62,819 bases of DNA from a virus. The notes under the pieces were generated by a model. The model searched no databases and was not told the origin of the DNA. It saw only the letters and a list, made by a program, of their open reading frames with translations. Each line of letters starts with the position of its first letter. Within the stretch, counting starts at the first letter, position 1. Of the stretch, positions 4,567-62,819 are shown piece after piece. The DNA lies in IMG/VR virus record IMGVR_UViG_3300025162_000007, positions 1-62,819 of that record; one strand, 5' to 3'. The position numbers and the translations under genes are program-made.

Positions 4567-6360
4567 ATGTACGGATTAACTTTTCTTGCTGCTAAAATAC
4601 TTGGTAAGTTAGATGCTAACCCAAATATAGAAGCAGATAAGTTAAACAAGATATTGCCTGAACTAGAAGTAAGTACTTGTAAAGAAATACTAGTGGCTTA
4701 TACTAGTACAGATAATAAGAAGAAGCAAGCAGAGCAATTAGAAAACATCTTGTATACTATCTTACCTAGATTAACAGAGCATTTATATTATGCTATGTCT
4801 ACCCAAATAAACTGTAGAAATAAAATAAATAAACAACTTGTTAAATCTTGGTGCTTAGATATAGAAGTATCAACTAAACTAGCAATAGAGTTTGATAAGT
4901 ATTTAACTAACACTAATTGTAGTGATAAAGATAAAGAAACACTACTAAGGTTATTTAGTGGGATACTACAAATTGCACTTAACAAAACGTATACGTGTAG
5001 TGAATGTAGTAGTAAAGTATCAGGTAAACCTTTCTTTGTATTTGATAAAGATACAACAGTATGTATGTGTTCAGAGTGTGCTTCTAAAAAGATAAAGTAT
5101 ACTTGTATACACTGTAACAATTCCTTTACATCTAACAATTCTAATCAGACTAAAGATGGTTTAGTTTGTCCTGACTGTATAAAAATATACTATAAAAAGT
5201 GTGAGTACTGTGGTGTATATGAAAAAAATGGATTAGTTAAATCACGAAAAGTTAATGTTGACTTAGGTAATGATGCAGTTAATAAGTTAATATGTGATAC
5301 CTGTGTTAAACTAAAGTTTACTAGTTGCTATAGTTGTGGCTGTCTAATAGAGAACGGCAGAGAAGTTACAACAGATGGTGGAAGACTTTGCCCTAGATGT
5401 GATGTAAGAAAACGCTTATATGGGAGTAGGACTGGGCTTACTACTAAAGTAGTAAAGCTTGGTAACACTTATACTGAGTGTAAAAGTAAACGTATCTTTG
5501 GTGTTGAGATAGAAACTAATATCTTAACAAGAGATAACAACACTGACTGGAGTAAAGTTAATGATGCTAGCATTGCAGCTAGAGAGTTTGTTAGTCCAAA
5601 ACTTAATGGTGATTTAGGTTTTGCTGATATAAAAAAGTTTCTAAGTGAGATAGATGCAACAGTAGATAAAGTTATAGTAAGAGAGATGGATAAAGTATGT
5701 GGACTTCATGTTCATGTTGATGGTAGTGACTTAACTATTGAAGATATAATAAAGTTATATCGAGCAGCTTGTCCACTACAGAATTTATTCTTTTGTCTTG
5801 TTAAGCCTGAACGTAGTAGTTGTAGACACTGTGTATTATTAAGTGATAGGTATGCTAAACTTAAAGATATACATGGCGTAGAGATGATACTATATGGACA
5901 CGGTGGTGAAGATGCAGCTAGAAGAAAGAAAGAAAAGTATAGTGGTGAACGTTATAACTGGCTTAATGTACACAGTTGGTTTTATCGTGGTAGTATAGAA
6001 ATGAGGCAGCATCATGGTACTCTTGACTATGATGAAATAGTTAATTGGATAAGTCTAATGACTTGCTTTGTTGACTGGGTAAAGACTACTTCTATAGAAG
6101 CAATAGATGAAGCTACTCTAAGTATTACTTCAGCTAACTCATTAAAGAATAGGTTAAGTAAGTTCCTAGAATTAGTAGCAAAGTTTAGTAACAAAGACGT
6201 AGCTAACTTTTATGCTGCACAGATTAAAAAGTTTTATGATATAGTTGTACCAAGTTATAATGTACAGCATATAAAAGTAGAAGTAGAAAAGGAACCAGTA
6301 GAGATAGAAGATATAGATGAAGAAGATGATGGGTATGATAATGATGATGATAATAATTAA
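4567..6360 (+). CDS. Amidoligase (glutamine synthetase-like fold) with N-terminal zinc-binding region
   Basis: 597 aa. About residues 310-490 match the Amidoligase_2 family, which joins a carboxylate to an amine using ATP: GVEIE at 312-316, EFVSP at 340-344, CGLHVHVD at 378-385, RYNWLNV at 462-468 and EMRQHHGTL at 478-486. Residues 144-278 carry at least seven CxxC-type pairs (144/147, 180/183, 201/204, 212/215, 243/246, 254/257, 275/278), suggesting several zinc-ribbon or treble-clef units that could bind protein or nucleic acid. The tail is strongly acidic. GGAGG lies 14 bases before ATG 4567, rather far. The next gene is a glutamine amidotransferase, so the two probably act together. The substrate is unknown: cell-wall peptide, protein or a small amine are all possible. 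Confidence 0.85.
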   Translation: MYGLTFLAAKILGKLDANPNIEADKLNKILPELEVSTCKEILVAYTSTDNKKKQAEQLENILYTILPRLTEHLYYAMSTQINCRNKINKQLVKSWCLDIEVSTKLAIEFDKYLTNTNCSDKDKETLLRLFSGILQIALNKTYTCSECSSKVSGKPFFVFDKDTTVCMCSECASKKIKYTCIHCNNSFTSNNSNQTKDGLVCPDCIKIYYKKCEYCGVYEKNGLVKSRKVNVDLGNDAVNKLICDTCVKLKFTSCYSCGCLIENGREVTTDGGRLCPRCDVRKRLYGSRTGLTTKVVKLGNTYTECKSKRIFGVEIETNILTRDNNTDWSKVNDASIAAREFVSPKLNGDLGFADIKKFLSEIDATVDKVIVREMDKVCGLHVHVDGSDLTIEDIIKLYRAACPLQNLFFCLVKPERSSCRHCVLLSDRYAKLKDIHGVEMILYGHGGEDAARRKKEKYSGERYNWLNVHSWFYRGSIEMRQHHGTLDYDEIVNWISLMTCFVDWVKTTSIEAIDEATLSITSANSLKNRLSKFLELVAKFSNKDVANFYAAQIKKFYDIVVPSYNVQHIKVEVEKEPVEIEDIDEEDDGYDNDDDNN

Positions 6361-6422
6361 ACTAAAGCTTTCACTAAGTACAGTAAAAGAATTAGAAATA
6401 CTAAAGGAGGTATTATAGAATA

Positions 6423-7631
6423 ATGTGTGGGATATTTGGAGCAGTAGGTAAGTATAGTCCTAATGATATAAGGTTACTTGCACTACTGAACATGAGTAGA
6501 GGAACAGATGCCACTGGATTTTACAATGGTAAGAAGTTACTTAAGGAAGCAGTAGATGCTAAAGACTTCTTACGTGACCACAGAGATTACTTTCTAGATA
6601 AGACACAGTATATTATGGGGCATACTAGACTTGGTACTCATGGTAGTAAACTTAAAGATGAAAATGCCCACCCGTTTATTGTAGGTACTATAACTGGAAC
6701 TCATAATGGTATGATTAATAATACCAAAGAGTTAAAAGAAAAGCATGGTGTAGACTATAAAGTAGATAGCCAATATATATTCTACTTACTTAACACTGGG
6801 ATTGATAAGTTAAATGAATTGTGGGGATACTATTGTCTTGCATATGTTGATAGTAAAAAACCTAAAGAGTTTAACTTACTTAAACACGATGGGCAATTAA
6901 GTATAGTTGAGTCTAATGGTGTACTATACTACTCCTCTAATGGTGATGATTTGTTTACGGTATTTGGAAAGCAAGCTAAAGTAAAAGACGTACCTACTGA
7001 TACTAAGTTGACTATAGATATAGATACACTAAAGATATACTCTACTAAGTTAATAGGACTTAACGGTAGATTTAAAGCTGGTACTACTTGTTGTGGTGAA
7101 ACTTATACTACTACTAAGACAGGAACTGGTAGGCATGGTGATAGCATTTATAACTTTAGAGATGATGAAGAGGATAGAGGAGGATACTGTGAAAGTGATT
7201 ATGACTATGAGAAAAGTCCTTATGGTTATTATTTTCATGGAGTGTTTCACCCTTATGCTAACACAGTATGGGATACTAATACTAAACGCTATACTAACTC
7301 AGTAATAGATAAAGAATTAAAAGCTATAGAAGCTGAAGCTAGTGTTGCTGAAAAGAAAGAAGAAGCTAAAGAAGCAGAGAAAGAAATAAAAAGAAACTTA
7401 AGTAGTGACTGTACAATTTGTGGTAGTCCTAGATTTATACAGGACTTAACTTTTATAGCGTGTGATGAAGGCTGGGGCAAGGCTGAGATGTGTGGTGAGT
7501 GCTGGGCTAAGTACATACGTGCAGGGTATAGTATAAGTGGTATGCTATTTAGTAGAGATAATGAAGTACCTATCGTAAAGAAAGTACCGCTTAAAATAGT
7601 AGGTGGTAAGTCTATTTGGGACGGTAAGTAG
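6423..7631 (+). CDS. Class II glutamine amidotransferase with C-terminal cysteine motif
   Basis: 402 aa. Starts MCGIFGA, giving the N-terminal nucleophile Cys2 after Met removal. GHTRLGTHG at 66-74, NAHPF at 81-85 and THNGMINN at 93-100 are the hallmarks of the Ntn-hydrolase glutaminase domain, which releases ammonia from glutamine. The C-terminal half has no PRPP, sugar-isomerase or asparagine synthetase domain. Instead it has a glycine/tyrosine-rich acidic linker, a charged helix, and cysteines near 330, 333, 347, 357 and 360 that may bind zinc. Strong AAAGGAGGT upstream. Immediately downstream of the amidoligase gene, so it probably feeds that enzyme or acts on the same substrate. Confidence 0.88.
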   Translation: MCGIFGAVGKYSPNDIRLLALLNMSRGTDATGFYNGKKLLKEAVDAKDFLRDHRDYFLDKTQYIMGHTRLGTHGSKLKDENAHPFIVGTITGTHNGMINNTKELKEKHGVDYKVDSQYIFYLLNTGIDKLNELWGYYCLAYVDSKKPKEFNLLKHDGQLSIVESNGVLYYSSNGDDLFTVFGKQAKVKDVPTDTKLTIDIDTLKIYSTKLIGLNGRFKAGTTCCGETYTTTKTGTGRHGDSIYNFRDDEEDRGGYCESDYDYEKSPYGYYFHGVFHPYANTVWDTNTKRYTNSVIDKELKAIEAEASVAEKKEEAKEAEKEIKRNLSSDCTICGSPRFIQDLTFIACDEGWGKAEMCGECWAKYIRAGYSISGMLFSRDNEVPIVKKVPLKIVGGKSIWDGK

Positions 7632-46861: not shown

Positions 46862-47344
46862 TTATAGTCCTACTGTAAACATTGGGCCAACAGAAACCAT
46901 CCAAGCTTTTGAACCCGTAAGTAACTGAGTGGCTGTTAAATCAACACCAACTTTGGCACCTTCTACTGGATAAAATAAACCTAGCCCACCCATTACTGCC
47001 ATATCATTTGCATTGACAGAAGCAATACGTGAGTAGTTATAGCCAAACCCAACTTTCAAATAAGAGTAAGGTAGAAATACTTTACCCTGTGGGCCTACAT
47101 ATAGGTTATATGAAAATTCATCAGCAGGTTTTGCCATTGAAAATTCTGCACCCATACCTATATCAAACCCTCTAACAACGCCTTTATCTGACGTGTATAG
47201 AGTGTAGTTCAATGTAGGGGCTACATTCAGTCCGTTGTCTCCGCTTTCAAAATGTGTTAATCCGCCTTTAACATCCATACTTGATGCCATAAGACAAGTT
47301 GACACAAGAAAAGCCATTACCAAAAATACTTTTTTCATCATCAT
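46862..47344 (-). CDS. Secreted outer-membrane beta-barrel-like protein
   Basis: 160 aa from ATG 47344, with AGGAGG upstream; an in-frame ATG at 47371 lies over the ribosome-binding site. Signal peptide MMMKKVFLVMAFLVSTCLMA then a series of amphipathic strands (THFESGDNGLNVAPTLNYTL, VRGFDIGMGAEFSMA, FLPYSYLKVGFGYNYSRI, AWMVSVGPMFTVGL) ending in a hydrophobic residue, as in eight-stranded OM barrels. A host-type envelope gene inside the head operon is unusual. It may alter receptors (superinfection exclusion) or help lysis. Function unknown. Confidence 0.7.
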   Translation of the reverse strand: MMMKKVFLVMAFLVSTCLMASSMDVKGGLTHFESGDNGLNVAPTLNYTLYTSDKGVVRGFDIGMGAEFSMAKPADEFSYNLYVGPQGKVFLPYSYLKVGFGYNYSRIASVNANDMAVMGGLGLFYPVEGAKVGVDLTATQLLTGSKAWMVSVGPMFTVGL

Positions 47345-47372
47345 TAAGTTCCTCCTGTTTTTAAAAGACATA

Positions 47373-59234: not shown

Positions 59235-59678
59235 ATGAAAATTAAAATGACATTAGGAGACGCAATGCAAATGATGAGAGGGCTAGATAGTCCTCAGACA
59301 TCACAGGTACAGGACACAGACTTAACTTATGCTATGGAGCACACTAGACGAATGCTTATGAGAGACATCAGGAACTATCAGTATAAACCTAGTAAAGAGT
59401 TTATGCAGTTTAGTATGGAGAATCAGAGAATAGAGCAGAAGTATCAGCAACATCAAGGGAATACTCCGCTAGATGTAGCTAATAAAAAAACTGAAGTACT
59501 AGAGTTAGAAAAGAAGTATGCTAGTGTTATAGCTGAAACTGAAAAGCTAGAGAATGAGTTTCAAGAGAAGCTAGAGAATGAGTACGACTTTGAAGTACAC
59601 TCTATTACAAAAGCAAGCCTACCTAAAAATCTAAATGGCCCAGTGATGAAAGCGCTATTTCTAATGATAGAGGTATAA
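59235..59678 (+). CDS. Hypothetical coiled-coil protein, 147 aa
   Basis: Behind AAAGGAGA. Mostly helical with a charged coiled-coil (about residues 75-115: KKTEVLELEKKYASVIAETE) and a C-terminal SLPKNLNGPVMKALFLMIEV. It resembles small phage coiled-coil proteins of unknown use. Directly upstream of the speD homologue. Confidence 0.55.
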   Translation: MKIKMTLGDAMQMMRGLDSPQTSQVQDTDLTYAMEHTRRMLMRDIRNYQYKPSKEFMQFSMENQRIEQKYQQHQGNTPLDVANKKTEVLELEKKYASVIAETEKLENEFQEKLENEYDFEVHSITKASLPKNLNGPVMKALFLMIEV

Positions 59679-59723
59679 ATGACTACTAAGGCATTCATGG
59701 AGTACCATAAATGACTACTAAGG
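59675..59723 (+). repeat. 17-base duplication around the speD start
   Basis: ATAAATGACTACTAAGG occurs at 59675-59691 and again at 59707-59723. Both copies contain an ATG with the same first four codons; the first opens an 11-codon ORF that ends just before the second. The downstream ATG (59711) belongs to speD. Slippage duplication, or a tiny upstream leader peptide. Confidence 0.75.
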
Positions 59724-60061
59724 GAGAGTTAACAATTTGTGATATATGGTTGCACTCAGGGCCTATTAAAACCTTTGATAAGTTTATAGAAGGTGCAGTT
59801 AATAAAGCTATAGCAACCTCAAACTGTAAAGTAATGAACAAGTTAAAATATAACTTCAATCCATACGGAGTTACTGCGGTGTATATCCTAAGCGCCTCCC
59901 ACTTAGGATATCACACCTACCCTGAACACAGTTATGTCAGTATAGACTGTTATACTTGTGAAGGTGAAGGGAGTAGTAAGAGAGTAGTTACTAATATTAT
60001 CAATGAGTTAAAGAAGCACATAAAGAAAACTAAGTTACGAACAATTAGGAGGGGAGTATGA
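59711..60061 (+). CDS. speD: S-adenosylmethionine decarboxylase homologue (SpeD family)
   Basis: 116 aa. YNFNPYGVTAVYILSASHLG, then YHTYPEHSYVSIDCYTCEG aligns with the core of bacterial SpeD. Ser63 is the residue that becomes pyruvoyl, and His68 and Cys83 are the processing and catalytic residues, at the same numbers as in the Thermotoga enzyme. The residue before Ser63 is Ala rather than the usual Glu, so self-cleavage or substrate could differ. SpeD makes decarboxylated SAM for spermidine; some phage and CPR homologues have become arginine or ornithine decarboxylases. No SpeE follows. Confidence 0.85.
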   Translation: MTTKGELTICDIWLHSGPIKTFDKFIEGAVNKAIATSNCKVMNKLKYNFNPYGVTAVYILSASHLGYHTYPEHSYVSIDCYTCEGEGSSKRVVTNIINELKKHIKKTKLRTIRRGV

Positions 60062-60195
60062 CACTAACACTAAAAAATATAACTATACAGCAGATATGGA
60101 AGATAGTTGCTGCACTAAACTTAAGTGAAGAAAACAGTGAGATGATGATAAATGCTATTGAAGCTGAAGAAGAACAGTTGGAATTACCACTATGA
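60058..60195 (+). CDS. Small protein, 45 aa
   Basis: Starts in ATGA at the end of speD with AGGAGGGG just upstream. Begins MTLTLKNITIQQIWKIVAAL and ends acidic (NAIEAEEEQLELPL). Length of 45 codons, ATGA overlaps on both sides. Not recognised. Confidence 0.6.
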   Translation: MTLTLKNITIQQIWKIVAALNLSEENSEMMINAIEAEEEQLELPL

Positions 60196-62692: not shown

Positions 62693-62819
62693 TGCAAACT
62701 AGCTAATGCTGATAGTAAACTATCAAGACTTGAGTACAAGTGTAATCTTTACAATTTACTGTTGTAAGTTTTACAAAACTGACGTGTATGCAAGAAGCAT
62801 GCCAAGTGCAACAGAAAAA
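62693..62819. repeat. Terminal direct repeat, right copy
   Basis: Exact copy of bases 1-127. See the left copy. It marks the point where a circular or circularly permuted genome was opened. Confidence 0.9.

Follow-up and report, generated by a model that had tools for sequence, protein, structure and literature searches.

The speD-like gene and the phage genome

A speD-like gene lies near the end of the window, by which is meant the whole stretch of DNA analysed, a viral record 62,819 bases long. The features of the locus are as follows:

59235..59678, + strand: 147-aa ORF directly upstream of speD, in the place of the ParB-methyltransferase gene of relatives; no family above cut-off
59675..59691, + strand: 17-nt perfect direct repeat, copy 1; holds the ATG (59679) of an 11-codon mini-ORF
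59707..59723, + strand: 17-nt perfect direct repeat, copy 2; holds the speD start codon (59711)
59711..60061, + strand: speD-like gene of the AdoMet_dc family (ORF listing, profile searches, alignment, AlphaFold2 model)
59729..59731, + strand: Leu7 codon (alignment of homologues)
59894..59899, + strand: predicted self-cleavage site Ala62-Ser63 (gcc tcc), where Ser63 would give the pyruvoyl group
59906..59911, + strand: Gly66-Tyr67 codons; homologues have mostly Ser/Thr/Ala and Ile/Val/Cys/Leu
59912..59914, + strand: His68 codon, processing/catalytic residue by the Thermotoga alignment
59957..59959, + strand: Cys83 codon, processing/catalytic residue by the Thermotoga alignment
59960..59962, + strand: Glu84 codon (alignment of homologues)
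60058..60195, + strand: 45-aa ORF, its start overlapping the stop codon of speD; matched no family

The reading frame has an ATG start and no internal stops, and its product of 116 aa is confirmed as a homologue of the class-1b AdoMet decarboxylases (AdoMetDC). The Pfam family AdoMet_dc (PF02675) matched at 72.5 bits (E 4.3e-20, cut-off 25), and PHROG 3125 matched with an E-value of 3.9e-18. The NCBIfam equivalog TIGR03330 scored 75.0 bits and missed its cut-off of 75.65 by 0.65 bits; the protein was therefore not filed as a certain AdoMetDC. A DnaA-like Pfam match was treated as noise. In the phmmer alignment, residues 24-83 correspond without gaps to residues 24-83 of the Thermotoga maritima enzyme (1tlu), and Ser63, His68 and Cys83 carry the same numbers in both proteins, as the original prediction of a phage SpeD homologue had stated. 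The roles of these three residues in the class-1b enzymes are described in passages of PMC10407285.

The AlphaFold2 model (63 sequences) reached a mean pLDDT of 93.2, and the predicted structure has the AdoMetDC fold. The best PDB matches were the Thermotoga and Aquifex AdoMetDC (1vr7, 1tlu, 1tmi and 2iii), and VIA and Foldseek searches with the model found no fold closer than the AdoMetDCs. The T. maritima enzyme (1tlu, 1vr7, 1tmi) shares the fold (VIA Z 14.8-14.9), the three residues named above, Phe49 and Pro51 with the window protein; whereas it has its own Glu62, Trp70 and Gly84, and the identity is about 27%.

Bases 1-127 of the window are identical to bases 62693-62819, and because of these identical ends the genome is probably complete or nearly so, as a circular assembly or with a terminal repeat. 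It encodes a phage terminase, a family-A DNA polymerase, NrdD with its radical-SAM partner, and a SNF2-type helicase; a tRNA search of the window found none. Relatives of its terminase and NrdD are remote and come from mixed hosts. The terminase search also found one contig that is almost identical (L344, 10687 of 10690 bases in the compared part) and that, judged by its length and start, ends before speD. The two copies of the 17-nt repeat lie around the start of speD at a distance of 32 nt, and the closing TGA of the mini-ORF overlaps the speD ATG; this may be a short tandem duplication, or the mini-ORF may encode a small leader peptide. Profile matches below the cut-off near the gene were treated as noise. 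Elsewhere in the window, an Amidoligase_2 protein adjoins a class-II glutamine amidotransferase (4567-7631, +). Beside the terminase gene, the protein at 46862-47371 (-) matched no family and, read by eye, resembles a small barrel protein of the outer membrane that has a signal peptide.

Relatives of the window SpeD and their paired genes

The closest phage protein is the class-1b SpeD of Pseudomonas phage ZRG1 (OQ504961, WID42108), with 42% identity across the full length of the window protein and a similar HTYPE...DCYTC region. It differs in having a Glu-Ser site, and in lying downstream of, and overlapping, a gene with ParB_N and N6_N4_Mtase domains. A search of IMG/VR by the window protein itself found no close relatives. 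In ZRG1, L016 and L034, the gene just 5' of speD carries both domains, with ParB_N slightly under the cut-off in two of them. The profile made from these three proteins had 12 matches in the loci collected up to that point (two of them, L021 and L230, being one contig), and each of the 12 is the immediate upstream neighbour of speD, in the same orientation.

An IMG/VR scan by the methyltransferase (MTase)-like protein gave 530 relatives, from which the best 80 were kept. Among these best 80 of 530, speD lies directly downstream of the ParB-MTase gene in 71 viral loci, and 46 of the 55 distinct MTase-speD pairs overlap, mostly by 8 to 20 bases (with the ATG nearest the MTase stop). The remaining 9 of the 80 loci have no adjacent speD (L419, L450, L457, L458, L460, L477, L478, L490 and L491). 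Spermidine synthase was found in none of the 16 hand-picked records searched for it, which are mostly fragments and include one (L460) without an adjacent speD. The gene pair is placed as follows:

71 of the 80 loci L014, L034, L417-L494; ZRG1, L002:2545-4390; P2559S, L498:1513-3154: ParB_N + N6_N4_Mtase fusion gene and speD

No report of the pairing was found in the literature searched, which left out bioRxiv and most subscription-journal papers. The SpeD of Croceibacter phage P2559S restored spermidine to E. coli without speD and is an AdoMetDC (PMC9992855, in part). Since this proven AdoMetDC also has the MTase neighbour, decarboxylated AdoMet is the probable product of the paired SpeDs. 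In phage Pam4 (ON014756.1, 45927-46460), a protein related to the SpeD-linked MTase carries the annotation of a pyridoxal-phosphate dependent enzyme.

The window SpeD stands alone. No ParB_N + N6_N4_Mtase gene lies upstream of it, and the two domain families and the MTase profile had no match in the window. Phylogenetic trees were reconstructed after short fragments and near-copies were dropped. In the tree of 152 homologues, the window SpeD clustered with ZRG1 and the viral contigs L014, L015, L016, L021 and L178 with moderate support (86), on a branch of 2.21 against a median of 0.83. In the tree of 85 rows, it fell inside the MTase-linked group (SH-aLRT 81 and 89), and the MTase-linked label required 2 changes on this tree against 28 by shuffling. 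The 8 rows nearest to it in the free tree are all MTase-linked SpeDs. P2559S SpeD lies with the MTase-linked SpeDs near the window's group in the 85-row tree, whereas the two proteins are apart in the tree of 152 homologues; it also differs in its shorter N-terminus, its Glu-Ser site and the MTase neighbour that it has kept. Uniting the window SpeD with all linked SpeDs cost 4.3 log units relative to the free tree (p-AU 0.44), and a clade of the linked SpeDs that excludes it cost 0.65 (p-AU 0.54). These trees weakly place the window SpeD near, and perhaps in, the MTase-linked lineage, with moderate support at best.

Active-site residues and the substrate question

The cleavage site reads Ala-Ser, as had been predicted, and Ala62 faces the Thermotoga Glu in the phmmer alignment; the usual, though not universal, Glu-Ser site is thus absent. 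A single sequencing error behind Ala62 was rejected, because a change from GAA or GAG to GCC needs two base changes. Among 312 unique homologues, the window included, the residue before Ser63 (position -1) is Glu in 273, Thr in 35, Ala in 2, Asp in 1 and Gln in 1; these counts give no frequency estimate, as they pool scans that fixed -1 or permitted Glu/Ala alone with the pelagiphage family. The two Ala sequences are the window protein and the archaeal L110. When -1 was left free in a genome scan, the matched gene was non-Glu in 2 of 80 loci (L110 with Ala, L147 with Thr). Family searches gave a second set of 74 ORFs from 72 loci; with the window protein added, this set had Glu in 65, Lys in 5, Thr in 3 and Ala in 2, and its L351 is the same gene as L110. 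The five Lys sequences are long proteins of the E. coli-like class, and the E. coli AdoMetDC self-cleaves between Lys and Ser.

The Asp at -1 belongs to phiN3 SpeD, a proven AdoMetDC that returned spermidine to a strain deleted for speD (PMC9992855, in part). Thr at -1 occurs chiefly in the pelagiphage HTVC201P family and in ODC-like proteins, and HTVC201P SpeD is a proven arginine decarboxylase (ADC) according to the same part of that source. Glu at -1 is not required for activity, because both of these enzymes are active. Ala at -1 is nonetheless rare. An IMG/VR DNA scan for Ala-Ser-His...HisThr.ProGlu found 3 stretches, in which the translated motif occurs in one 62-aa ORF only and none holds a full SpeD with the Ala-Ser motif; whereas the Glu-Ser version of the scan found at least 120 stretches. 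The window gene supplies a natural example of Ala preceding the Ser that would form the pyruvoyl group, a test of how much freedom this position has. Two other loci have unusual sites. The Peribacillus ORF from 3989 (L147) joins a Thr-Ser SpeD and a spermidine-synthase-like domain in a single frame of 444 aa, the partner being read by eye. The Bathyarchaeota ORF from 3923 (L114) encodes a SpeD homologue with Thr where the pyruvoyl-forming Ser is expected.

Ala62 had also been read as a pointer to arginine or ornithine decarboxylase (ODC) activity, which would yield agmatine or putrescine. Both activities arose from SpeD, and phage homologues with one or the other are known, as reported in parts of PMC10407285 and PMC9992855. 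The window SpeD resembles the ODCs (SpeDC) and the HTVC201P ADC (SpeDA) in family, in Ser63/His68/Cys83, and in a residue -1 that is non-Glu, as it is in many ADC/ODC-type proteins. However, those relatives mostly have Thr at -1, and proven AdoMetDCs such as phiN3 can lack Glu, so Ala-Ser was rejected as a mark of ADC or ODC. The ODC signature consists of four residues, Gln, Thr, Phe and Tyr, and one Pro common to all AdoMetDCs is lost from the ADCs (PMC10407285, in part). The four ODC marks were placed at 58, 62, 69 and 77 by our own alignment of ODC-type sequences, not from the published figure. By this alignment, the window SpeD has 0 of 4 (Tyr58, Ala62, Thr69 and Ser77), and it keeps both Pro51 and Pro71, the candidates for the AdoMetDC Pro. 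The HTVC201P ADC has Gln58, Thr62, Asp71 and Asn51; more generally, the SpeDC and SpeDA proteins carry Thr at -1, Gln58, and Ser or Phe at 69, and have no Pro51/Pro71, marks that the window SpeD does not have.

Joining the window SpeD to the ADC/ODC-type clade cost 27 log units relative to the free tree, although the joined tree is not formally rejected (p-AU 0.070). An earlier and weaker run gave p-AU 0.685, and its free search was poorer than the constrained trees. No agmatine or putrescine gene was noticed in the window, where spermidine synthase (PF01564) was the sole polyamine gene searched by name.

That search found no spermidine synthase in the window record, which had likewise been taken as a sign of a changed substrate. 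However, the phage AdoMetDCs of S-PM2, phiYS40, phiN3 and P2559S were tested as lone speD genes that worked with the E. coli spermidine synthase, and only one phage is named with both speD and spermidine synthase genes in the part of PMC9992855 considered here. Phages normally have no spermidine synthase gene of their own; this absence says little on the substrate, and it was rejected as a mark of ADC or ODC. Thus the identity of the gene, the residue numbers, the Ala-Ser site and the missing synthase all stand from the original prediction; whereas its step to ADC or ODC is not supported, and such an activity is judged quite improbable.

Other positions of the window SpeD are also changed relative to 314 AdoMetDC-type homologues. 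For example, His7 (296 of 314) is replaced by Leu, Leu20 (284 of 314) by Lys, and Glu62 (311 of 314) by Ala. Closer to the site, S66G and I67Y replace residues that are Ser in 267 and Ile in 264 of the 314 (Gly in none, Tyr in one), and G84E replaces a Gly present in 285 (Glu in none). Position 7 is replaced (Leu/Met/Gln/Lys) in 7 of the 30 alignable MTase-linked SpeDs too; Glu62 is present in 54 of 54 unique MTase-linked SpeDs. The window SpeD keeps Phe49, Pro51, Gly53, Thr55, Pro71, Glu72 and Asp79. Because several near-invariant positions are changed, altered specificity or lost activity is possible.

If the normal activity were lost, the protein might cleave itself poorly or bind AdoMet or another ligand without turnover, the gene drifting after loss of the MTase or serving a structural role. 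The joint change of several near-invariant positions around the site, the long branch and the missing partner gene would fit such a loss, as would the GC content by codon position of speD, which is flat (0.34, 0.38, 0.35), unlike that of five other window ORFs. However, the frame is open and of normal size, Ser63, His68, Cys83 and Thr55 are kept, the predicted fold is confident, and the start signals are good by eye. Loss of activity is therefore considered rather unlikely.

Possible roles of the phage SpeD

The reading that we tentatively favour, at close to an even chance, is that the window protein is an AdoMetDC-type enzyme of a phage lineage, still self-cutting and with AdoMet as its substrate. 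It probably folds as the Thermotoga AdoMetDC, and it would cleave itself between Ala62 and Ser63, with Ser63, His68, Cys83 and Thr55 all present. AdoMet would stay the substrate, yielding decarboxylated AdoMet during infection, which would feed a host spermidine synthase whose presence is assumed. The window phage may have kept or acquired the decarboxylase alone; the nearest relatives are mostly the second gene of an MTase pair. Several points count against this reading: the changes E62A, S66G, I67Y and G84E, the long branch, the TIGR03330 miss, the moderate tree support, the constraint tests, which reject neither rival, and the assumed host enzyme.

The MTase-like partners of the relatives suggest another use of decarboxylated AdoMet. 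All 7 aligned MTase-like proteins have FSCPPY where such methyltransferases commonly have [DNS]PP[YFW]. The AdoMet-binding loop is FAGD or FSGD in 64 of 64 SpeD-linked ORFs in which the motif was found (best 80 of 530 relatives), motif I being unmatched by the pattern used in 7 of the 71 linked ORFs. The 11 ORFs that are not beside speD have FAGG (3), FGGE (2), FGGS (1), FAGD (4) or no motif (1); the comparison is biased, as one of the two patterns in the MTase scan demanded FAGD. Among annotated phages, SpeD-less relatives carry FAGGSVRG (B054, phiFL3A and Mae-JY30) or FAGGPARA (HCTV-2), with no match in Funu2; P2559S and ZRG1, both with speD, have FAGD in their MTase-like proteins. The Gly-to-Asp loop change thus appears to go with speD, and it may be a single event, because the linked proteins may form one clade and their retrieval was also biased.

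A comparable arrangement is the CmoA-CmoX-CmoY system of phage S-B43, in which the DNA carboxymethyltransferase CmoX works with carboxy-AdoMet supplied by CmoA (PMC12783734, in part). As in the MTase-linked relatives, a small enzyme making an AdoMet variant stands beside a DNA-modifying enzyme, and ParB domains recur. However, CmoA does not act as a decarboxylase, the SpeD-linked proteins have [ST]CPPY where SPPC stands in CmoX, and the window has neither enzyme. By this analogy, the SpeD-linked MTase-like protein may be an enzyme that aminopropylates DNA. Plainer alternatives are that the SpeD and MTase genes travel together for some other reason, or that the paired SpeD serves to reduce AdoMet or to produce an inhibitor of methyltransferases.

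For the window SpeD, the family, fold, residues, missing partner gene and weak placement with the MTase-linked SpeDs were computed, whereas self-cleavage, the AdoMet substrate and the supply of a host enzyme are inferred. It is conceivable, if doubtful, that the gene derives from a widespread phage module in which SpeD feeds decarboxylated AdoMet to a ParB-MTase-like protein that adds aminopropyl rather than methyl groups to DNA; the SpeD-linked proteins have in common a changed AdoMet-binding loop, FAGD[TS], which is missing from most SpeD-less homologues. The window phage would then have kept the decarboxylase alone, and its active-site ring would since have changed (E62A, S66G, I67Y and G84E).

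Decarboxylated AdoMet might also serve aminopropyl transfer inside the window phage itself, to DNA or another target, by an unrecognised partner. The tie of this SpeD lineage to DNA-methyltransferase-like genes, the complete-looking genome without a spermidine synthase, and the CmoA/CmoX example of phages making AdoMet variants for DNA modification would be consistent with it; however, N6_N4_Mtase, ParB_N and the MTase profile are all unmatched in the window, and such transfer is considered improbable. The coupling of a whole lineage to DNA-methyltransferase-like genes calls the usual spermidine reading of phage speD into question, and hints that the family may serve DNA modification as much as polyamine making. 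If decarboxylated AdoMet is what the MTase-like enzymes use, phages would carry a positively charged modification of their DNA that is new to science.

Two further speD loci differ in their neighbours. In Pseudomonas lini (L149:3851-6909), the genes that come after speD encode a radical-SAM-like protein and an MFS-like transporter (labels by eye), with no adjoining spermidine synthase. In phage MaAM05 (L296:486-2306), two tandem speD-like genes are followed by speE; the second protein groups with the ODC-like proteins in the tree of 152 homologues, yet has Glu-Ser. MaAM05 may hold a putrescine-to-spermidine pathway.
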